Assembly (NCBI GenBank): GCA_016192035.1
Contig: JACPUW010000030.1
Coordinates: 70,322 to 134,321 of the forward strand
Direction of reading: 5' to 3'
Length of the DNA: 64,000 nucleotides
Origin: Bacteroidota bacterium
GTDB taxonomy: Bacteria; Bacteroidota; Bacteroidia; CAILMK01; JACPUW01
A program made the position numbers and the translations under genes. The notes beneath the pieces were generated by a model. The model made no database searches, had not been told where the DNA came from, and was given only the letters and a program-made list of their open reading frames with translations. This document shows positions 19,966-45,405 of this stretch, piece after piece (positions within the stretch are counted from its first letter, which is position 1; each line of letters starts with the position of its first letter).

Positions 19966-20790
19966 TCAGCCCGGAAGGCTAAAAGACAACACATAACCGC
20001 CTCCGCCCGCACCGCAAAGTTTCATGGCGGTATTGCCACTGTCAATTGACCTTGCCCAAGTGTCAATGAAAGATTGGGGAATGGTCCAGGGCATGTGCAC
20101 GAGGGTAAACTTTGAAAGCGATTTGATACATTGGAAAAGGGATTCCGTATCGCCTGACAGGTAGTGCCCAATTGCAGCATTGCCCTGTTCTACATACTCT
20201 TGCGCAAATAAGGCAAAGAATCCTTCATCCTGCCGTTCAAACTCTTCCACCAAAGCGGCCGTAGATCGGGACGACCCGGTATCCACCAGTGAGAACCCTT
20301 CGGTAGGGTCGCCAGGGGGCAAATCCAAGGGTTCAATGCCGCTTGGCTTCACTAGGATTCCGGTATCTTCATAGCATACCAGTACGTCAAGCCCACTGCT
20401 GTGCCCATGGAAGTATGACTCTATGTGCGCAAACAAATTTTTCCTCTCGCCCAGGCCCTGCGGCAGGTGCCGGCCATACGAACGAAATAAAGCCGCCAAT
20501 AGGGCTGCCGAGCTGCCCAAGCCATATCCCTGTGGAATATTGGAACGGAAGTAAAGCCCGTTGCTTAAATCCCGTGAAAGCCGCTCTTGGTCAAAGTAAT
20601 CGTAAAAACGGTCGTGCAGGAAATGCCCGAAACGCTTGACCGCCTCATGTGAATGCATGGCCGGATCACCTTGGGCATCCAGCATGAGTTGTCCGCTCAC
20701 GGCCCTGTAAGGCACTGATATGCCCTGCCCTCCCCTAAGTATGGCGTATTCTCCCAGCAGCATCAGCTTGCCACTTACTGGCTTGTCCAT
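19966..20790 (-). CDS. mvk: Mevalonate kinase (Bacteroidota-type GHMP kinase)
   Basis: A 274-residue GHMP kinase that should phosphorylate mevalonate in the mevalonate pathway. Motif 1 is GKLMLLGEYAILRGG (residues 7-21), the ATP-binding motif 2 is PQGYGLGSSAAL (86-97), a conserved HSSGLDVL follows at 130-137, and motif 3 GAGGGGYV lies near 263. The sequence closely fits the kinase that sits near mvaD in flavobacteria. The remaining pathway genes lie 20 kb away (41-45.4 kb), so the pathway is split. The gene is divergent from menF with only 60 bases between starts; a TACATTTG box lies just upstream, implying a very short leader. Identification as the mevalonate rather than phosphomevalonate kinase rests on family resemblance. 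Confidence 0.85.
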   Translation of the reverse strand: MDKPVSGKLMLLGEYAILRGGQGISVPYRAVSGQLMLDAQGDPAMHSHEAVKRFGHFLHDRFYDYFDQERLSRDLSNGLYFRSNIPQGYGLGSSAALLAALFRSYGRHLPQGLGERKNLFAHIESYFHGHSSGLDVLVCYEDTGILVKPSGIEPLDLPPGDPTEGFSLVDTGSSRSTAALVEEFERQDEGFFALFAQEYVEQGNAAIGHYLSGDTESLFQCIKSLSKFTLVHMPWTIPQSFIDTWARSIDSGNTAMKLCGAGGGGYVLSFSLPG

Positions 20791-26200: not shown

Positions 26201-26669
26201 CAAATGGCTTTGCCTACCGGCAATGCTCATGATGGTCATTGGATTGGCCGGTTGTGACCGGGGGGTTTTATTTGAACAATTTGTGCCCCTTGATAAAAAG
26301 GGCTGGGGATATGAACAGGTGTTGCCTTTTGAATTGGAGGTACAGGATGTATCCGTCCCTTATGATGTGTTTATTAACCTTAGACATACCAATGACTATC
26401 CGTATGCCAACCTGTGGATCATGGTGTATAGCTATCCCCCCGATGGCGGCACACCCACCCAGCAGCGCATGGAGCTAAAACTGGCAACGAATGATGGAAA
26501 GTGGCTGGGCACTGGCCTAGGTGCCAATGTGAACCACCAGATAAAGGTGAGGGACATGATGAAGTTTCAAGCTCCTGGCAAGTATTCATTGGCCATACAG
26601 CATGATATGCGCGTACAGTCGGTGCCTGCCCTTACACACTTTGGCATCACTGTGGCAAAATCTAAGTAG
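26190..26669 (+). CDS. gldH: Gliding motility lipoprotein GldH
   Basis: A 159-residue lipoprotein. The start at 26190 gives a signal peptide ending in lipobox GLAGC with Cys at about residue 20; an ATG seven codons upstream (26169) is also possible. The mature part (RGVLFEQFVPLDKKGW, INLRHTNDYPYANLWIMV, QQRMELKLATNDGKWLGTGLG) matches the GldH family, which is required for gliding and T9SS function in flavobacteria, though its biochemical role is unknown. It overlaps ricT by 11 bases and is convergent with the permease gene, overlapping its 3' end by 8 bases. Position after ricT is the usual Bacteroidota arrangement. Confidence 0.9.
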   Translation: MGINKWLCLPAMLMMVIGLAGCDRGVLFEQFVPLDKKGWGYEQVLPFELEVQDVSVPYDVFINLRHTNDYPYANLWIMVYSYPPDGGTPTQQRMELKLATNDGKWLGTGLGANVNHQIKVRDMMKFQAPGKYSLAIQHDMRVQSVPALTHFGITVAKSK

Positions 26670-28056
26670 CGGGTTGTTGGTCCATGCGCTTGCCAAAGAG
26701 AGCCCTTGAGAAGAGCGCATAAAGGACACCGGATAACACCCAGGCCGGAACAATGACAAAGCTCAAGAATATGTCGTTGACCGTTGATAATGAATAGAAT
26801 ATGCCCACACTAAGGGCCCAGGCCAATAGTATTGCCTTGTTAAATGATATGTGTGAGGGCGTATGCCATTTGTGCCCAAAGTAGTGCTGTACGAATATGA
26901 TGGCGCCCACAGGCGCAAGTACAAAGCCATAAAACGCCACAAATCCAAGCAGTTTCATGGCAAAAGCCGGAAATATGCCGGCAACGGTGGCCAGTACCCC
27001 CGCAGCCAAGGTGGCGGTACCTCGTTTCCAATGGCTTGAAATGGACTGAAAAGCAAGGCCAGCCCGGTAAATGGTGGGATTGGCGGTAGTCCAGCCAGCC
27101 ATGACCACTGCGATAGCCCCAAATATGCCCAGGGCTTGGTAAGCCAAGGATCCCGGATTGACAGGTGGGGCCTGGCCTCCAGCCATCATTTCCATGGCTT
27201 CAGGACTGCGGAGGTAAACCGCATAGAGGAGTGCAGCGGCAATCCAGGCCATATAGTGGCCCAAATACATACCTGCGGCCGTAGCCCAAGCCAATGATGC
27301 TTTTTTGGCATACCGAAAAACCGATAGGTCGGCCATGCCCAGGTGCATGGCTGCGTTGCAGCACCAAGACCAAATCACCACATGCCAAAATCCGAATTTG
27401 ATTTGGCCCGGAAAGGCTTCGCCCCCATCGCCCCAAACTTGCCAGAAATCACTCAGGGAACGCAAGTCGAGCTGTTTTATGGCCACTGCACCACAGGCCA
27501 AAAAGGCCAGGGCAATGATGGGTGACATCCAATTGGCGGCCTGTGCCACGGAGTGGTATCCCATGCGCGCTATCCAGGTAAAGAGTATGCCGATAAGCAA
27601 AACAATCCCTATCCAGAGCGAGGACTTTGGAAAGGCCTCGTCCAGTCCTGGCATATCAACCTGAAATGGAATCCCTACCGCAGTGGCCGAAACGGTAACC
27701 ATGGCGCCAGCCAATGCGCAAAACAAGATGCCATTGGCAATGTTGTACATAACTACCAAGCGTTTACCGGCTATTTTTTCAAGCTGGGCATATAGGGAGA
27801 GCCTGTGTCTTACCGCAATTGGGGCAGTAATAAAACGCCAGCTGAGCACCGCCAGCAGGTTGCCAAGCAAAAGCCCAACAATGAGGTCAAAAGCGCTAAC
27901 GCCAGATGCCAAAAAGAGTGGGCCTATCATAAATTCGGTTCCCGCAGCGTGTTCGCCCGCATACATGCCCAAGAAGCTTTTCCAGCCTTTTAGTTCATGC
28001 TGGGGCACCGGGGCCCTGCCAGGGCTTTCAGCTATATGGACTTCATTTGCACTCAA
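26662..28056 (-). CDS. NCS1/cytosine permease-like transporter, substrate unknown
   Basis: A 464-residue inner-membrane protein with about twelve membrane helices. The N-terminal region (YAGEHAAGTEFMIGPLFLASGVSAFDL, then LLGNLLAVLSWRFI) and the GWTTANPTIYRAGL segment fit the purine-cytosine permease (NCS1) superfamily, in a divergent branch whose substrate I cannot name. It starts inside the stop codon of the AAA/DUF4143 ATPase gene (4-base ATGA overlap), so it should be co-expressed with it. The rhamnose operon lies 2 kb upstream on the same strand and has no recognisable transporter, so a role there cannot be excluded but is not supported by family knowledge. Confidence 0.72.
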   Translation of the reverse strand: MSANEVHIAESPGRAPVPQHELKGWKSFLGMYAGEHAAGTEFMIGPLFLASGVSAFDLIVGLLLGNLLAVLSWRFITAPIAVRHRLSLYAQLEKIAGKRLVVMYNIANGILFCALAGAMVTVSATAVGIPFQVDMPGLDEAFPKSSLWIGIVLLIGILFTWIARMGYHSVAQAANWMSPIIALAFLACGAVAIKQLDLRSLSDFWQVWGDGGEAFPGQIKFGFWHVVIWSWCCNAAMHLGMADLSVFRYAKKASLAWATAAGMYLGHYMAWIAAALLYAVYLRSPEAMEMMAGGQAPPVNPGSLAYQALGIFGAIAVVMAGWTTANPTIYRAGLAFQSISSHWKRGTATLAAGVLATVAGIFPAFAMKLLGFVAFYGFVLAPVGAIIFVQHYFGHKWHTPSHISFNKAILLAWALSVGIFYSLSTVNDIFLSFVIVPAWVLSGVLYALFSRALFGKRMDQQPAT

Positions 28057-29255
28057 TCAAATAGCATAATGGGATCCAATAATAAGAAATCTTCTATGGG
28101 AAATCCGTTTTTGCCCACCAGAAGGGATTTGTAGGGGTTGTACTTTTTTTTGAAGGCATCTAGGCCACGGGTAATTTTCGTGGGGCCGCTCTTTACCTCT
28201 ATGGCCACGGTTTTTCCTTTGTACGTGAGCACGAAATCCACTTCGTAATTGGCTTCTCGCCAAAAATATAGCTTGAAACCTTTAGACCAAGCGGCGTTGA
28301 TAAGATGTGCCCCTACCGCACTTTCTACCCAGTGGCCCCACATGGGAAGGTTGGTCCGCACTTGGCCAAAATCAAGGGGTTGCAACGCGCTGAGCAAGGC
28401 GGTGTTATAAACTTGGAATTTGGGGCTTGATGCCCGCTGCCTGATTTTATCTGGTGCATATTTCTCCAAGCCACCCAGCAGGCCTGCCGTGTCAAGGAGT
28501 CTAAGGTAATTGCTTAGCGTGGTGGTGTTGCCGGCATCTAAAAGTTGACCAAGTATTTTATTGAAAGAGAGTATGTGACCTGAGTAGGAGCAGCCCAACT
28601 CAAAAAGCCTCCGCATAAGGGCGGGCTTGTCTATTCGGGTAAGCAAGATGATGTCCCTGTTTATGCTGGCCTCAATGAACGCACTAACTATGTACTGCTT
28701 CCACCTATCTTCTTCAGCAATTAGGTGCATGGAGCCGGGGTATCCGCCAAACCATATGAATTCGTCCAATCCGAGCCCAAAGGATGCTTTCATTTCAGGA
28801 TATGACCAGTGCCCAACATAGGTGGTTTCAAACCTGCCGGCAAGTGATTCGCTAAGCCCTTGCTGCAGCATAAGCCTAGATGAGCCCAGTATCATTACTT
28901 TGATGGGTATGTTGTGTATGGTGTCGTAGTCCCATTCTGCCTTAATGGCTTCGCTCCAGTTGTCCAGCTTTTGTATCTCGTCAATTACCAGGACATACTC
29001 CTTGGCATTTTCTTGTTTTAGCCTTAGCCTCACCGATTCCCATTGCAAGCCTATCCATTCATTCGCTTTGCTGGTTACGTTATCGGTTGATACATATACA
29101 TGAGGGGACGTGAGTTGTTGGATAACCTGTAATGACAGGGTTGTTTTACCTACTTGCCTTGGGCCCACCAATACCTGAATCAATTGCCTGGATTCACGGG
29201 AAAGCCGTTGAACTAAGTCGCTAAGGTGTAGTCTAGCAGTTTTTTGTAGGGTCAT
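28053..29255 (-). CDS. AAA ATPase with DUF4143 domain
   Basis: A 400-residue protein of the AAA_14-DUF4143 type. Walker A is GPRQVGKTT (residues 32-40), Walker B is YVLVIDEIQKL near residue 95, and ILGSSRLML is the sensor region. The C-terminal DUF4143 half carries a PD-(D/E)xK-like core, EVDFVLTYKGKTVAIEVKSG, typical of restriction-endonuclease-fold domains. Members are common and often horizontally transferred, but their function is unsettled. Upstream lie phased TTACTCA/TGAGTAA palindromes within 285-bp repeats, which look like operators for this gene. The 3' end overlaps the permease gene by four bases. No toxin or antitoxin partner was recognised. Confidence 0.88.
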   Translation of the reverse strand: MTLQKTARLHLSDLVQRLSRESRQLIQVLVGPRQVGKTTLSLQVIQQLTSPHVYVSTDNVTSKANEWIGLQWESVRLRLKQENAKEYVLVIDEIQKLDNWSEAIKAEWDYDTIHNIPIKVMILGSSRLMLQQGLSESLAGRFETTYVGHWSYPEMKASFGLGLDEFIWFGGYPGSMHLIAEEDRWKQYIVSAFIEASINRDIILLTRIDKPALMRRLFELGCSYSGHILSFNKILGQLLDAGNTTTLSNYLRLLDTAGLLGGLEKYAPDKIRQRASSPKFQVYNTALLSALQPLDFGQVRTNLPMWGHWVESAVGAHLINAAWSKGFKLYFWREANYEVDFVLTYKGKTVAIEVKSGPTKITRGLDAFKKKYNPYKSLLVGKNGFPIEDFLLLDPIMLFD

Positions 29256-38792: not shown

Positions 38793-40688
38793 TCACATGG
38801 CTCCTTTCACTATTTCTTCCACTACCAGGGGGTCTAGCAGGGTAGTAATGTCGCCCAGGTTTTCAGGTTCGCCTTCGGCCACTTTTCTCAGTATCCGGCG
38901 CATGATCTTACCCGATCGGGTTTTTGGTAGTCCGCTCACAAACTGTATCTTGTCGGGTCGGGCTATGGGGCCAATTTGCTGGGCCACCGTTTCGCATATT
39001 TCACCGCGCAGGTTTTCTTCATTGCCCGGTTGCTTCTTGCATATCACATAGGCATAAATGCCCTGTCCTTTTATGGGATGTGGATACCCCACCACTGCCG
39101 ATTCTGCCACATGCGGGTCTGCATTTATGGCGTTTTCAATTTCAGCGGTGCCAAATCGGTGACCGCTCACATTTATGACATCGTCAACCCTTCCTATGAT
39201 GCGGTACATGCCATTTTGGTCGCGTTTGGCACCATCACCGGTGAGGTAGTAGCCCTTAAACTTAGAAAAATACGTTTCGCGGCACCGCGTATGGTCGCCA
39301 TAAGTGGTCCTGATGATGGATGGCCAGGGAAATTTTATGGCCAAAAAACCCTCTACATGGTTCTGGGTAATCTCCTTGCCCTCATTGGTGAGCAAAACAG
39401 CTTGCACCCCGGGCAGCGGAAGACCGGCATAAGAAGGTTTTGTGGGGCACAAGTTGCCCAGTGCTGAGATCATTATGCCACCCGTTTCAGTTTGCCACCA
39501 TGTATCTACCACCGGACACCGCTCCTTACCCACATGGATATTGTACCAGTGCCAGGCTTCCTCATTTATGGGTTCTCCCACAGTGCCAATCACTTTCAGC
39601 GAGTTCAGGTGGTAGCTCATTACGTGCTCGTCGCCGGCTGCCATTAGCGACCGAATGGCGGTAGGTGCGGTATAGAAAATGTTCACGGAGTGCTTGTCAC
39701 ACACTTGCCAAAACCGCCCAGGATCTGGATAGGTGGGTATGCCTTCAAACATCAGGGTGGTAGCACCATTGAGCAATGGGCCATATACTATGTAGGAGTG
39801 CCCCGTTATCCAGCCAATATCGGCGGTACACCAATAAATATCGCTTTCGTCATACTGAAACACGTTTTGGAATGTGTAGCCCACATACACCATGTACCCA
39901 CCACAGGTATGGACCACTCCTTTTGGTTTGCCGGTAGAGCCTGATGTGTAGAGTATAAAGAGGTTATCTTCGGCATCCATGGGTTGCGCAGGGCATTCAT
40001 CGCCCACATGGGCCAATTCTTCATGGTAATACACGTCGCGGCCAGGTACCAGGTCCAGGCCCCAGTTGGTCCGGTTTACTACCAACACTTTTTTCACCGA
40101 AGGACAATCTTCTAATGCTTCATCCACTACGCGCTTGATAGGCAGCTCCTTGGCGCCACGGAAGGCGCCATCTGAGGTAATTACCATTTTGCATTTGGAG
40201 TCATTGATCCGGTCAGATAGCGACTGGGCAGAAAACCCTGCAAACACTACAGAATGGACCGCGCCCAAACGGGCACACGCCAAGCTTGCAATGAGCAGTT
40301 CAGGGATCATGGGTAGGTAAATACATACCCTATCGCCTTTTGATATGCCATTGCGCTTGAGTATGTTGGCCATTTGGCACACCTTCCGGTGAAGTTCTTT
40401 GTACGTGTAGCGCTGAAAACGTTCCTTGGGGTCATTGGGCTCCCAAATCAGGGCTAGTTTGTTGCCCCGTTTTTCCAGGTGACGGTCAAGACAGTTTTCG
40501 GTGATATTGCATGTGCCTCCTACAAACCACTTGATATCAGGTCCGTCAAAATCCCATTGCAACACATCGTTCCATTTTTTGCTCCAGGTAAACGTTTGGG
40601 CTATCTCCCCCCAAAAACCGGCAGGATCCTCTACGCTTTTGTGGTATGCAGCCAGGTATTCATCAAATGAGTGTATGCGGTATGCCAT
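38793..40688 (-). CDS. acs: Acetyl-CoA synthetase, AMP-forming
   Basis: A 631-residue enzyme that activates acetate to acetyl-CoA in the cytoplasm. The AMP-binding P-loop YTSGSTGKPKGVVHT, the DTWWQTETGG acyl-AMP motif, the hinge TGDGAKRDQNG, and the C-terminal TRSGKIMRRILRK with the conserved acetylatable Lys are all visible. The frame is open a further 88 codons upstream, but the ATG at 40688 gives the family N terminus (MAYRIHSFDEYLAAYHKS), so the earlier starts are rejected. It is divergent from the mevalonate operon over 269 bases. Acetyl-CoA from this reaction could feed HMG-CoA synthesis, but joint regulation is not shown. Confidence 0.96.
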   Translation of the reverse strand: MAYRIHSFDEYLAAYHKSVEDPAGFWGEIAQTFTWSKKWNDVLQWDFDGPDIKWFVGGTCNITENCLDRHLEKRGNKLALIWEPNDPKERFQRYTYKELHRKVCQMANILKRNGISKGDRVCIYLPMIPELLIASLACARLGAVHSVVFAGFSAQSLSDRINDSKCKMVITSDGAFRGAKELPIKRVVDEALEDCPSVKKVLVVNRTNWGLDLVPGRDVYYHEELAHVGDECPAQPMDAEDNLFILYTSGSTGKPKGVVHTCGGYMVYVGYTFQNVFQYDESDIYWCTADIGWITGHSYIVYGPLLNGATTLMFEGIPTYPDPGRFWQVCDKHSVNIFYTAPTAIRSLMAAGDEHVMSYHLNSLKVIGTVGEPINEEAWHWYNIHVGKERCPVVDTWWQTETGGIMISALGNLCPTKPSYAGLPLPGVQAVLLTNEGKEITQNHVEGFLAIKFPWPSIIRTTYGDHTRCRETYFSKFKGYYLTGDGAKRDQNGMYRIIGRVDDVINVSGHRFGTAEIENAINADPHVAESAVVGYPHPIKGQGIYAYVICKKQPGNEENLRGEICETVAQQIGPIARPDKIQFVSGLPKTRSGKIMRRILRKVAEGEPENLGDITTLLDPLVVEEIVKGAM

Positions 40689-40711
40689 AGTGTTTGCTTG
40701 AATAAGTGGGG

Positions 40712-40740
40712 CTAAAATAGGTTTTTTTGGTGCGGTACAA
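40712..40740 (-). promoter_or_regulatory. Candidate acs promoter
   Basis: On the minus strand TTG is followed after 18 bases by TATTTTAG, a partial match to the Bacteroidota TTG/TAnnTTTG pattern, 23 bases before the acs ATG. Confidence 0.3.
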
Positions 40741-40957
40741 GCTTGCCAAATGGCATTCCATTGGCCTAATGGGAAGGATTTGCCATAGGTGGAGTGGACT
40801 GTTCTGACATGGGGTAAGGAATGGATGATTGCCCCTGTTGCCGTACTGGCTGCCCTTTGATTTTGGCCTAATTGCGGCAAATGCGGGTGCATGGATACCT
40901 TTGGCAAAACAATCGGTGCCCTAAGTTGTTTGGAACTCACATTCATACCCATTTATA

Positions 40958-41983
40958 ATGCCCGCATCAGGCCCCAATGACCCAGCCAATATGAGTGACA
41001 GAAAAGCTGACCATATTGAGCTGGCTTTTCAATCGCAGATGGGTACCGCCCAACAAGACGATAGGTTCAATTATGAACCAATGCTGAGTGGCTACCACAA
41101 TGAATTGCCTGCATATTGGTTTGACAATAAGAAACTTGGTGCCCCAATATGGGTTTCGAGCATGACTGGAGGCACCGAAAAGGCCTATGCCATAAACCAG
41201 CACCTGGCAGCGGCATGCGCTGAGTTTGGACTGGGCATGGGCTTGGGTTCTTGTAGGCCTTTGCTCAATGGCAAATCGAGGTTTAACGATTTTAATCTTA
41301 GGCCAATCATAGGCCCAGACTTGCCGTTCTATGCCAACCTAGGCATAGCGCAAGTGTCACATTTGATACATCTTAACCGCCAGCAGGAAATAGTGGATCT
41401 AGTAGCCGATCTTCATGCCGATGGGCTGATAGTACATGTGAACCCACTGCAGGAATGGCTTCAGCCGGAAGGCGATAGGTATGCCGGGCCACCAGTGCAG
41501 GTAGTGGAACAGCTATGGTCAACCACCGGCCTAAAAGTGATTGTTAAGGAAGTGGGCCAGGGTTTTGGCCCAGATAGTTTACTGGCATTGATGAAAATGC
41601 CCCTGGTAGCAATCGATTTTGCGGCCCTCGGCGGCACCAATTTCGCGCTGCTTGAAATGCTCAGGAGCAGTGAAGCAGTGAGCCATGCCTATAGTGCCCT
41701 GGCACAGGTGGGCCATAGCGCAAACCAAATGATTGACATGACCAACCAACTGTTCGATTCACAGGTCGCCCTTTCCTGCCACACCGTCATTGTTTCAGGG
41801 GGTATAAGGAATTTTCTGGATGGGTACTACTGCATAAACAAAATCAAAACAAACGCCGTTTATGGCCAGGCTTCTATGCTGCTTAGGTATGCCCAAGAAA
41901 GTTACCAAGCACTGCGTGAGTACTTAGTTTTGCAAATAGAAGGCCTCAAACTGGCAAATGCATTTTTAAAAGTTAAGCCTTAA
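40958..41983 (+). CDS. fni: Isopentenyl-diphosphate delta-isomerase, type 2
   Basis: A 341-residue FMN/NADPH-dependent isomerase that interconverts IPP and DMAPP. The N-terminal RKADHIELAF and the FMN-site segments PIWVSSMTGGTEKA, VKEVGQGFGPDSL and DFAALGGTNFALLE are characteristic. The first ATG is used here; an ATG at 40991 (MSDRKADHIELAF) also gives a plausible N terminus. It is the first of four mevalonate-pathway genes in the same direction with gaps of 3, 4 and 73 bases. It is type 2 (Fni), not the zinc-dependent type 1 enzyme. Its position before the pathway's decarboxylase supports the function. Confidence 0.93.
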   Translation: MPASGPNDPANMSDRKADHIELAFQSQMGTAQQDDRFNYEPMLSGYHNELPAYWFDNKKLGAPIWVSSMTGGTEKAYAINQHLAAACAEFGLGMGLGSCRPLLNGKSRFNDFNLRPIIGPDLPFYANLGIAQVSHLIHLNRQQEIVDLVADLHADGLIVHVNPLQEWLQPEGDRYAGPPVQVVEQLWSTTGLKVIVKEVGQGFGPDSLLALMKMPLVAIDFAALGGTNFALLEMLRSSEAVSHAYSALAQVGHSANQMIDMTNQLFDSQVALSCHTVIVSGGIRNFLDGYYCINKIKTNAVYGQASMLLRYAQESYQALREYLVLQIEGLKLANAFLKVKP

Positions 41984-41986
41984 CAT

Positions 41987-43345
41987 ATGAATATCAGAGA
42001 GTTTAAGGACAAGGCAATTTCAGGGTTTTCTAAGCTAACCAAGCAGGAAAAGATAGAATGGCTCATTAGCAACGTGTTTGAAAACCCTAGGGAGGTTATA
42101 CGCGAGTTTACCGAATACTGGCACAAGGACGAAACACGGCAAAGGGTCTTTGACGAAATATCTGAAAATACGCTTACCAATTTCTACCTACCCTACGGGG
42201 TTGCGCCTAACTTTCTTATCAACAATAAGATGTATGTGGTGCCTATGGTTATTGAAGAAAGTTCGGTGGTGGCCGCAGCGGCCAAAGCTGCCAAGTTTTG
42301 GCTGGACAAGGGTGGTTTTTCTACCCAAGTGCTCTCTACCATAAAAATAGGCCAAGTCCATTTCAAATGGACAGGTGACGGTGAGGCCTTAAGGGCGCAT
42401 ATGCCGGTCATTAAGCAATCGTTGAGGCAAGCGGTAAAACCCCTCACCGAAAATATGGAGAAACGCGGTGGGGGCTTGATTGACATAGAATTAATAGACT
42501 TTACCGATACCGAAGAAGATTTGTACCAGTTGCGCGCCAGTTTTGAAACCTGCGACAGTATGGGAGCCAATTTTATAAACTCCTGTTTAGAGGAATTTGG
42601 CAGAAACCTTCCCATATTACTGTCAGATAATGAGCGGTTTTTGACTGGAAAGGGGCAGTGTGAAGTGCTCATGTGCATCTTGAGCAACTTTACGCCAGAA
42701 AGCCTGGTACGCGCAGAAGTATCATGCGCAGTTGAAGATTTTGGCTTGGTAGAAGGCTTGCCTGCCGAGCAATTTGCCAATCGATTTGCCCAAGCAGTGC
42801 GCATAGCTGAGATTGACCCTTACCGGGCTACCACACATAATAAGGGAATTTTTAATGGTATTGACGCGGTGATTCTGGCTACTGGAAATGATTTTAGGGC
42901 GGTGGAGGCCTGTGGCCACGCTTATGCTTCCAGTAGTGGGCGCTACTCCAGTTTGTCTCATGCCGAAGTGTCCAATGGCCGATTCAGGTTCTGGTTGGAC
43001 TTCCCCATGTCGGTAGGTACCGTTGGTGGGTTGACTAAGGTACACCCACTGGCCAAGCGTTCGCTGGAGTTGCTGGGTAAACCCAGTGCCAAGGAACTCA
43101 TGCAGATAGTAGCCGCTGTGGGCCTGGCCCAAAACTTTGGTGCGGTAAAGGCATTGGTCACTTCAGGTATTCAAAAAGGGCATATGAAAATGCACCTGAA
43201 CAACATACTCGCCAACTTTGAAGCTAATGCCTATGAAGCCGAACGCGCCAAGGAGTATTTCCTTGACAAAGTAGTGAGTTTTGCTTCTGTCCGTGAGTTT
43301 ATTCAAGGCATCAGGGCTGGTGCCATAAAGAATTTCAAGGCCTAA
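41987..43345 (+). CDS. mvaA: Hydroxymethylglutaryl-CoA reductase, class II
   Basis: A 452-residue HMG-CoA reductase that makes mevalonate. It lacks membrane helices, as class II bacterial enzymes do. Recognisable motifs are VIEESSVVAAAAKAAKFW with the catalytic Glu, CDSMGANFINSC (the DxMGxN motif), GTVGGLTKVHPLAKRSLELLG, and the C-terminal KGHMKMHLNNI with the catalytic His. It starts three bases after fni and is followed four bases later by the GHMP kinase, so the genes form one operon. Class II enzymes work as biosynthetic or degradative forms; here the pathway context indicates biosynthesis. Confidence 0.95.
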   Translation: MNIREFKDKAISGFSKLTKQEKIEWLISNVFENPREVIREFTEYWHKDETRQRVFDEISENTLTNFYLPYGVAPNFLINNKMYVVPMVIEESSVVAAAAKAAKFWLDKGGFSTQVLSTIKIGQVHFKWTGDGEALRAHMPVIKQSLRQAVKPLTENMEKRGGGLIDIELIDFTDTEEDLYQLRASFETCDSMGANFINSCLEEFGRNLPILLSDNERFLTGKGQCEVLMCILSNFTPESLVRAEVSCAVEDFGLVEGLPAEQFANRFAQAVRIAEIDPYRATTHNKGIFNGIDAVILATGNDFRAVEACGHAYASSSGRYSSLSHAEVSNGRFRFWLDFPMSVGTVGGLTKVHPLAKRSLELLGKPSAKELMQIVAAVGLAQNFGAVKALVTSGIQKGHMKMHLNNILANFEANAYEAERAKEYFLDKVVSFASVREFIQGIRAGAIKNFKA

Positions 43346-43349
43346 GTGT

Positions 43350-44261
43350 TTGGTGCACTTTAGGGCTAATGGCAAGGTTCTTCTTAGTGCTGAGTATGCG
43401 GTGCTGCACAGTGCCCGGGCTTTGGCCATTCCATCCAAACTTGGCCAACATCTTTCTGTTATCGACATGCCCGGTACCCATTCTATACTATGGGAAAGCA
43501 TAGACCACCGTGGGCAGGTATGGTGGAATGGGAATTTTCCGCTTGAACTGGAAAGATATACAAGCGCGGATCCCATTGCGCTGAGGGTGTCTCAGTTACT
43601 TCACCTGGCCAAAAAGAATAATCCCAGATTTCTTGCCAGTGGCTGCCACGTACAGGTATCCACCACCTTTGACCTTTCTTGGGGACTAGGCTCCAGTTCT
43701 ACCTTGGTATCTCTTATTGCCCAGTGGGCAGGAGTAGATCCATATGGGCTTCAGTACCATGTTTTCGGAGGATCCGGTTATGACATTGCCTGTGCTTTGG
43801 CTACCAGTCCATTGGTATTTACCCGCTGGCCTGAACCCTGTGCCTGCCCGGTAGGCTTTCATCCGCCTTTTGCCAACCACTTGTACCTGGCTATTTTGGG
43901 CCAAAAGCAAGACAGCCGAAAGGCCATAGCCGCTATGCCCAATAGAGGGATACAGGAATGGGAGGTCACCATTGGGAAATTGAACCAACTTACTGATGCT
44001 ATGTTGCATTGCATAGATTTATCAGATTTTATGGCTATAATGAAAAGACATGAAGCCATAATTGGCCATGCAATAGATGAAGTTCCCATTCAAGAGTCCC
44101 GATTCCCAGGTTTTCCCGGACAAATAAAATCACTTGGTGCCTGGGGAGGTGATATGGTATTGGCCGCCACGCACTTGTCGTTGCCAGAGGTGAAAACCTA
44201 TTTTGCCAGTAAGGGAATAAACCAGGTAATTCCAGCCTCGCAGCTCTTGTATTTTGGCTAG
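43350..44261 (+). CDS. GYDIA-type GHMP kinase, probable phosphomevalonate kinase step
   Basis: A 303-residue GHMP-superfamily kinase. Motif 1 is NGKVLLSAEYAVLHSARALA (residues 7-26), motif 2 SWGLGSSSTLVS (110-121), followed by the distinctive GGSGYDIACA (140-149); motif 3 is degenerate (SLGAWGGDMVLA). The start is not ATG: in-frame TTG at 43350 or GTG at 43353 gives the family N terminus, and no ATG lies nearby. It sits in the operon between HMG-CoA reductase and the decarboxylase. As mevalonate kinase is encoded at 19966-20790 and no classical phosphomevalonate kinase is seen, this enzyme is the best candidate for that step. That is inference; the family has no assigned reaction known to me. 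Confidence 0.85.
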   Translation: MVHFRANGKVLLSAEYAVLHSARALAIPSKLGQHLSVIDMPGTHSILWESIDHRGQVWWNGNFPLELERYTSADPIALRVSQLLHLAKKNNPRFLASGCHVQVSTTFDLSWGLGSSSTLVSLIAQWAGVDPYGLQYHVFGGSGYDIACALATSPLVFTRWPEPCACPVGFHPPFANHLYLAILGQKQDSRKAIAAMPNRGIQEWEVTIGKLNQLTDAMLHCIDLSDFMAIMKRHEAIIGHAIDEVPIQESRFPGFPGQIKSLGAWGGDMVLAATHLSLPEVKTYFASKGINQVIPASQLLYFG

Positions 44262-44334: not shown

Positions 44335-45405
44335 ATGAAATCAAATAACAAACACAGCCAAGGGCGGGTAGCTTGGAGAAGCCCAAGCAATATTGCACTT
44401 GTAAAGTACTGGGGCAAATACGGCAGGCAATTGCCAAAGAACCCATCCTTGAGTTTCACATTGTCAGAGGCTTATACCGATACTTATGTGGAATACGACA
44501 TAGACCCTAACCGTGCCCAGCTTGAGTTGACTTTTTCTTTCCACGGCAAGACCCATGCGGCATTTGAAGATAAGATTCGGAAATTCTTCATGGCAAACCC
44601 GGATGATTTTCCTTACATAAACCAGTTAAAGATCAATATATCAAGCCAAAACAGCTTTCCACATTCTGCGGGCATCGCTTCTTCTGCTTCGTCTATGAGC
44701 GCTTTGGCCCTTTGCCTGGTGCATATGGAGCAAAAAGTCTATGAATCAAGCCTTGGTCAGGCCCAGCTTTTCACCAGGGCCAGCCACTTGGCCAGGCTGG
44801 CTTCGGGTAGTGCCTCGCGGTCGGTGTACGGCGGTTTGGTATGCTGGGGCGAAACCGAATGGGTTACCGGGTCAAGTGATTACTATGCAGTGCCAATTTC
44901 ACAGGGTGTTGACCCTGTTTTTCTTTCTTTCGAAAACACCATTCTCATGGTGGACAAGGGCGAAAAGCCGGTGAGCAGTACGGCTGGCCATGCACTCATG
45001 AACAAGCATCCCTATGCGGAGATGCGCTACTATGTGGCACGCGACCACGTAAACCAATTTAGTGAAGCTCTGGCCAATGGCGATATAGCCGCTTTTGGCC
45101 GGTTGTTGGAAAACGAGGCACTCGCCCTGCATGGCTTGATGATGAACAGCGACCCTTCATTCATTTTGCTGAAACCCAATACGCTATCCATCATTGAGGC
45201 TATTCGTGAGGTTCGTGATTCTGAAGATTTTCCTTGGTATTTTACGCTTGATGCGGGCCCCAATGTGCATGTGATGTATCCACATGAAGTGGCTACACAA
45301 GCCCGCAAGTACATAGAAACACGGTTGCAGCCGTTTGTCCAAGACAATGGGATACTTTATGACCGGGTGGGCCAGGGGCCAAGTGCACTGGTATGGCCTA
45401 GCTAA
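44335..45405 (+). CDS. mvaD: Diphosphomevalonate decarboxylase
   Basis: A 356-residue GHMP-fold enzyme that converts mevalonate 5-diphosphate to IPP. The N terminus has the signature WRSPSNIALVKYWGKYG, with SFTLSEAYTDT next. The ATP-binding loop is GIASSASSMSALALC, then RLASGSASRSVYGG, and the C-terminal DAGPNVHVMYP holds the conserved Asp. Complete, with an ATG start. It is 73 bases after the GYDIA kinase and the last gene of the operon. With mvk, mvaA and fni also present, HMG-CoA to IPP/DMAPP is nearly all encoded here; HMG-CoA synthase is not in the window. Confidence 0.96.
   Translation: MKSNNKHSQGRVAWRSPSNIALVKYWGKYGRQLPKNPSLSFTLSEAYTDTYVEYDIDPNRAQLELTFSFHGKTHAAFEDKIRKFFMANPDDFPYINQLKINISSQNSFPHSAGIASSASSMSALALCLVHMEQKVYESSLGQAQLFTRASHLARLASGSASRSVYGGLVCWGETEWVTGSSDYYAVPISQGVDPVFLSFENTILMVDKGEKPVSSTAGHALMNKHPYAEMRYYVARDHVNQFSEALANGDIAAFGRLLENEALALHGLMMNSDPSFILLKPNTLSIIEAIREVRDSEDFPWYFTLDAGPNVHVMYPHEVATQARKYIETRLQPFVQDNGILYDRVGQGPSALVWPS

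Follow-up and report, generated by a model that had tools for sequence, protein, structure and literature searches.

We propose that the kinase gene lying between mvaA and mvaD in a mevalonate operon of this Bacteroidota bacterium very probably encodes phosphomevalonate kinase (PMK; EC 2.7.4.2), the second of two kinases in the mevalonate route by which many Bacteroidota make isoprenoids, on the basis of its predicted fold, its motifs, the gene order, the lack of an alternative enzyme and its co-occurrence with the mevalonate pathway, from which we infer its substrate and its use in vivo. The original prediction had named this GYDIA kinase as the otherwise missing PMK, and that central claim was supported by genome-wide exclusion, co-occurrence, synteny and motifs of the PMK type. 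The enzyme would convert mevalonate 5-phosphate and ATP to mevalonate 5-diphosphate and ADP. By analogy with other members of the GHMP family, the GLGSSS loop of this GHMP-fold enzyme would hold ATP while the acceptor phosphate attacked the gamma-phosphate, helped by Lys9 and by Asp145 of the GSGYDIA motif. Its substrate would be supplied by the candidate mevalonate kinase (MK) encoded elsewhere in the window (the whole 64,000-nucleotide stretch of DNA analysed), and its product would pass to MvaD, encoded just downstream, for conversion to IPP.

The interval between mvaA and mvaD holds an intact open reading frame of 303 residues, which starts at the TTG at 43350 or at the in-frame GTG at 43353, 4 nt downstream of the mvaA stop codon, and which forms part of the gene run idi2-mvaA-kinase-mvaD (Table 1). 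Profile matches of the neighbouring genes confirmed the originally described position of the kinase, between mvaA and mvaD in an operon with IPP isomerase and HMG-CoA reductase. A Met codon at 40991 is a possible real start of idi2. Promoter and terminator scans of the regions flanking the mevalonate operon gave no useful excess over shuffled background.

Table 1. Coordinates in the window of the proposed phosphomevalonate kinase, its motifs and the other mevalonate pathway genes.
Feature	Position	Strand	Basis
idi2, type 2 IPP isomerase	40958..41983	+	TIGR02151 174.6 bits, below cut-off of 281.3
mvaA, class II HMG-CoA reductase	41987..43345	+	TIGR00532 262 bits, above cut-off
GYDIA-family GHMP kinase, proposed phosphomevalonate kinase	43350..44261	+	NF040656 289.9 bits; AlphaFold2 pLDDT 95.3, GHMP fold
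Lys9, motif 1 (NGK)	43374..43376	+	K at all 42 letters in the family column
Motif 2 GLGSSST, residues 112-118, phosphate-binding loop	43683..43703	+	Family alignment
GSGYDIA, residues 141-147, PMK-type substrate and catalytic Asp motif	43770..43790	+	Motif comparison, family alignment
Motif 3 KSLGAWGGD, residues 260-268	44127..44153	+	Motif comparison, family alignment
mvaD, diphosphomevalonate decarboxylase	44335..45405	+	TIGR01240 170.0 bits, just below cut-off of 171.35
Mevalonate kinase candidate	19966..20790	-	TIGR00549 73.1 bits over full length, below cut-off of 163; SSGLD and KLCGAGGGG motifs

Two further gene arrangements were observed in the window. An acetyl-CoA synthetase gene (38793-40952, - strand) is divergent to the mevalonate operon, and its real start is probably the Met codon at 40688, which would leave the two an upstream region of about 270 bp in common. 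A DUF4143/AAA_14 ATPase gene (28053-29255, - strand) overlaps by 4 nt a downstream open reading frame of 464 amino acids (26662-28056, - strand), for which a Pfam search gave no match.

The kinase matched the NCBIfam model NF040656 ("GYDIA family GHMP kinase"; cut-off 225 bits) over 298 of 299 model positions, and by its sequence it is a member of this family. It has all of the family motifs and is a divergent member, the top members in our genome panel scoring 390-440 bits. NF040656 is a hypothetical equivalog, and its family record gives no reaction. The sole Pfam domain in the protein was a weak GHMP_N match (14.9 bits). The kinase falls outside the classical PMK subfamily TIGR01220 (no match at E<=10; cut-off 165.7 bits) and has no PF04275 domain of the kind found in animal-type PMKs.

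We compared the motifs of the kinase with those of classical bacterial PMKs and of MKs. GHMP motifs 1 and 2 were intact, as had been predicted, with GK and GLGSSS showing little or no variation among 43 homologues. In the same alignment G112, G114, S116, S117, GSG141-143, D145, A147, K186, K260-G263 and W265-D268 were invariant, and all 43 family members carried GSG[YF]D[IVL]A and KSLG[AG]WGGD. Motif 3 had been described as degenerate, a description that we correct here: KSLGAWGGD varies within the family only by a single A-to-G change, and the Asp with which it ends fits the GAGGGD of classical PMKs. Nor does GSGYDIA set the kinase apart from those enzymes, as had been proposed, since the pattern GSxxD[ILV]A ... 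GGGD is common to classical PMKs and absent from MKs; we therefore ruled out this motif as a novelty. The classical PMKs of Bacteroidota have GSGVDIA or GSGTDIA with KPSGAGGGD as motif 3, the solved Listeria PMK (Lin0012, 3k17) has GSCGDIA and KSSGSGGGD, and that of S. pneumoniae (3gon, 1k47) has GSMGDLA and KSSGAGGGD. These classical enzymes have the GHMP fold in common with the GYDIA kinase, and differ from it in an identity of about 18%, in the Trp that replaces one Gly of GAGGGD and, for the Bacteroidota PMKs, in a length about 50 residues greater. Judged from these alignments, only the Trp of KSLGAWGGD is special to the GYDIA family in motif 3. MKs of the TIGR00549 type (e.g. M. jannaschii MK, 1kkh) also have the GHMP fold and motifs 1 and 2 in common with GYDIA; however, those compared have SGxDN in place of the GS..D[ILV]A form, and their motif 3 ends with GGGG (KLCGSGGGG or KLTGGGGGG).

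Gene order was examined in 59 homologous loci. mvaA lies directly upstream of the GYDIA gene, on the same strand and within 400 nt, in 49 of them; mvaD lies within 1.5 kb downstream in nine, and a homologue of the window's MK candidate follows further downstream in eight. The full order idi2-mvaA-GYDIA-mvaD-MK was found in three loci, and idi2-mvaA-GYDIA-mvaD is kept within the window's own genus and family. Classical PMKs likewise sit in a mevalonate cluster adjoining MvaD, with the order mvaD-PMK-HMGR fused to MK. In five such loci the HMG-CoA reductase::mevalonate kinase fusion was a single open reading frame of 742-769 amino acids beside a classical-type PMK and MvaD, and these genomes also had DXR.

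We searched the whole genome (2.98 Mb in 44 contigs, 100% complete) for other enzymes that could carry out this step. Neither a classical PMK (TIGR01220) nor an animal-type PMK (PF04275) was found at E<=10, nor was DXR of the MEP pathway at E<=1. Isopentenyl phosphate kinase (IPK) was absent from the genome, the sole amino-acid kinases being aspartokinase and UMP kinase. A genome scan with Pfam GHMP_N listed only the MK candidate and MvaD, because this model sees the GYDIA kinase weakly. As the genome has no classical PMK, IPK or DXR, the mevalonate 5-phosphate step needs the GYDIA gene, which is the only candidate seen for the conversion to mevalonate 5-diphosphate in a genome that has an MK candidate and MvaD. 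The original prediction was to fail if another PMK existed in the genome, and none was found among the known types searched for. In the same genome the HMG-CoA synthase C-terminal domain (PF08540) was not detected at E<=1, though the genome has the rest of the pathway and lacks DXR; this synthase is either very divergent, located in an assembly gap or replaced.

The distribution of the family was evaluated in a panel of 296 Bacteroidota genomes. NF040656 scored above its cut-off in 41 of these, counts that are not independent because the panel genomes are related and the carriers span only four families; the p value of a Fisher test on this panel overstates independence for this reason. DXR was present in 255 of the 296 genomes and in none of the 41, the NF040656 carriers being exactly the genomes that lack it. 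MvaD matches split clearly into a group of 46 genomes that exceeded 140 bits and a tail under 30 bits. The high-scoring group consisted of the 41 carriers, with a Bacteroidia-type MvaD, and five others in which a TIGR01220-type kinase adjoins MvaD. The kinases of these five scored below the cut-off of 165.7 bits (about 90-140 bits for the highest-scoring fragment when the genomes were searched, and about 148 for two whole proteins). In each of the 46 genomes, MvaD was thus accompanied either by GYDIA or by a PMK of the classical type. In a second panel of 60 relatives, NF040656 was found in 11 genomes, which added five further families, and nine of the 11 were without DXR. One 0.5 Mb genome had neither GYDIA nor DXR. 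As a point against the assignment, the remaining two carriers, both of one genus, had the GYDIA mevalonate cluster together with DXR, and this genus possibly runs both isoprenoid pathways.

The assignment depends on which of the two GHMP kinases acts on mevalonate 5-phosphate. The roles might be swapped, with GYDIA as the mevalonate kinase and the MK candidate as the PMK, and the structural comparisons lend this reading some support. The AlphaFold2 model of the GYDIA kinase (pTM 0.91) has a GHMP fold, and in searches of solved structures, by sequence with the family profile and by fold, MKs ranked first (M. jannaschii MK); a phmmer search of the PDB with the single protein returned nothing relevant, although the family profile did match. 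Foldseek placed MKs at the top by E-value, yet the TM-scores of the PMKs (0.73 for 3k17 and 0.71 for 3gon) were equal or close to that of the best-ranked MK (0.73), so that the fold alone is neutral between the two. The proposed comparison with Streptococcus PMK thus bore out the GHMP fold and did not tell MK and PMK apart. Ancestry also leaves the roles undecided: when the four groups of kinases were placed in one tree, GYDIA formed a clade of its own (100/99), and the best tree kept it apart from classical PMK and grouped it with the other Bacteroidia kinase family, that of the MK candidate (83/70), but a grouping of GYDIA with PMK was not rejected (p-AU 0.263) and the deep order was weakly resolved. 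The functional assignment therefore rests on context and motifs, and a swap is improbable. GYDIA has GSGxDIA and GGD of the PMK type, whereas the other kinase has SSGxD and GGGG of the MK type. TIGR00549 matched the MK candidate over its full length with 73 bits, whereas its match to GYDIA covered only residues 6-124 and scored 20.8 bits, far from the cut-off of 163 that defines MK membership. In profile comparisons, classical PMK came first for GYDIA (E 1.9e-14, 279 columns), followed by the MK-candidate family (5.5e-12, 183 columns) and the fused MKs (1.7e-7), and repeat comparisons agreed on the first two ranks. The nearest sequences and folds of the MK candidate (model pLDDT 86.9) were MKs, with a TM-score of 0.69 to these versus 0.61 to PMK 3gon, which supports a division of labour between the two kinases. 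Its earlier identification as mevalonate kinase is upheld by the whole-length profile match, the motifs and the MK-like fold, though not by a score above the family cut-off. The MK candidate has 274 amino acids and stops right after motif 3, eight relatives having 295-329; no other frame continues it, so the C-terminal part is absent and has not been displaced into another frame.

Two other readings would leave GYDIA outside this step, and both appear highly unlikely to us. GYDIA could act elsewhere, for example as a 3-kinase or on a different metabolite, while MvaD served as a phosphomevalonate decarboxylase followed by IPK. Haloarchaea and Chloroflexi do have modified mevalonate pathways (review PMC9385802), and MvaD did score just under its TIGR01240 cut-off; however, it scored only 76.6 bits with the phosphomevalonate decarboxylase model NF040704, against 170 bits as diphosphomevalonate decarboxylase, and the IPK route was ruled out by the lack of IPK, which closes the phosphomevalonate decarboxylase route. 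It is just as hard to credit that the PMK is an unrelated kinase encoded elsewhere in the genome, GYDIA being a GHMP paralogue with a regulatory role or one that the cell can spare. Since animals are known to have PMKs that are non-homologous (Houten and Waterham 2001, as listed in PMC3533463), homology searches could miss another type, but the presence of NF040656 coincides exactly with the mevalonate-only genomes of the 296-genome panel and the position of GYDIA between mvaA and mvaD is conserved. With GYDIA as the PMK, it is conceivable, though we consider it doubtful, that GYDIA and its MK partner have an origin independent of the classical MK/PMK pair, in which case GHMP kinases would have acquired PMK activity and the GSGxDIA/GGD signature on two occasions.

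The novelty of this kinase is lower than had been implied, as the family was already named NF040656; its function as PMK was supported. Hayakawa et al. reportedly found in 2017 that Flavobacterium johnsoniae has a general mevalonate pathway, with assayed kinases that are only distant relatives of those known before. GYDIA occurs in Flavobacteriaceae, and the PMK assayed in F. johnsoniae may be a member of this family. Given the existing family record and these divergent kinases, we class the enzyme within a known kind. The PMK step had been reported in 2014 as missing in Flavobacteriaceae genomes, and a nonorthologous GHMP kinase was suggested (Elizabethkingia paper, PMC4026382). The term "GYDIA" appeared in no relevant paper of the literature searched.

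What this analysis adds is the genome-wide exclusion test, the exact phyletic match and the correction of the motifs. NF040656, a family of unassigned function, may now be named as the phosphomevalonate kinase of mevalonate-dependent Bacteroidota, among which it is a clean phyletic marker of mevalonate use. The PMK of humans belongs to another type, which is not homologous to this one. The step attributed to GYDIA should be essential in Bacteroidota that lack the MEP pathway.
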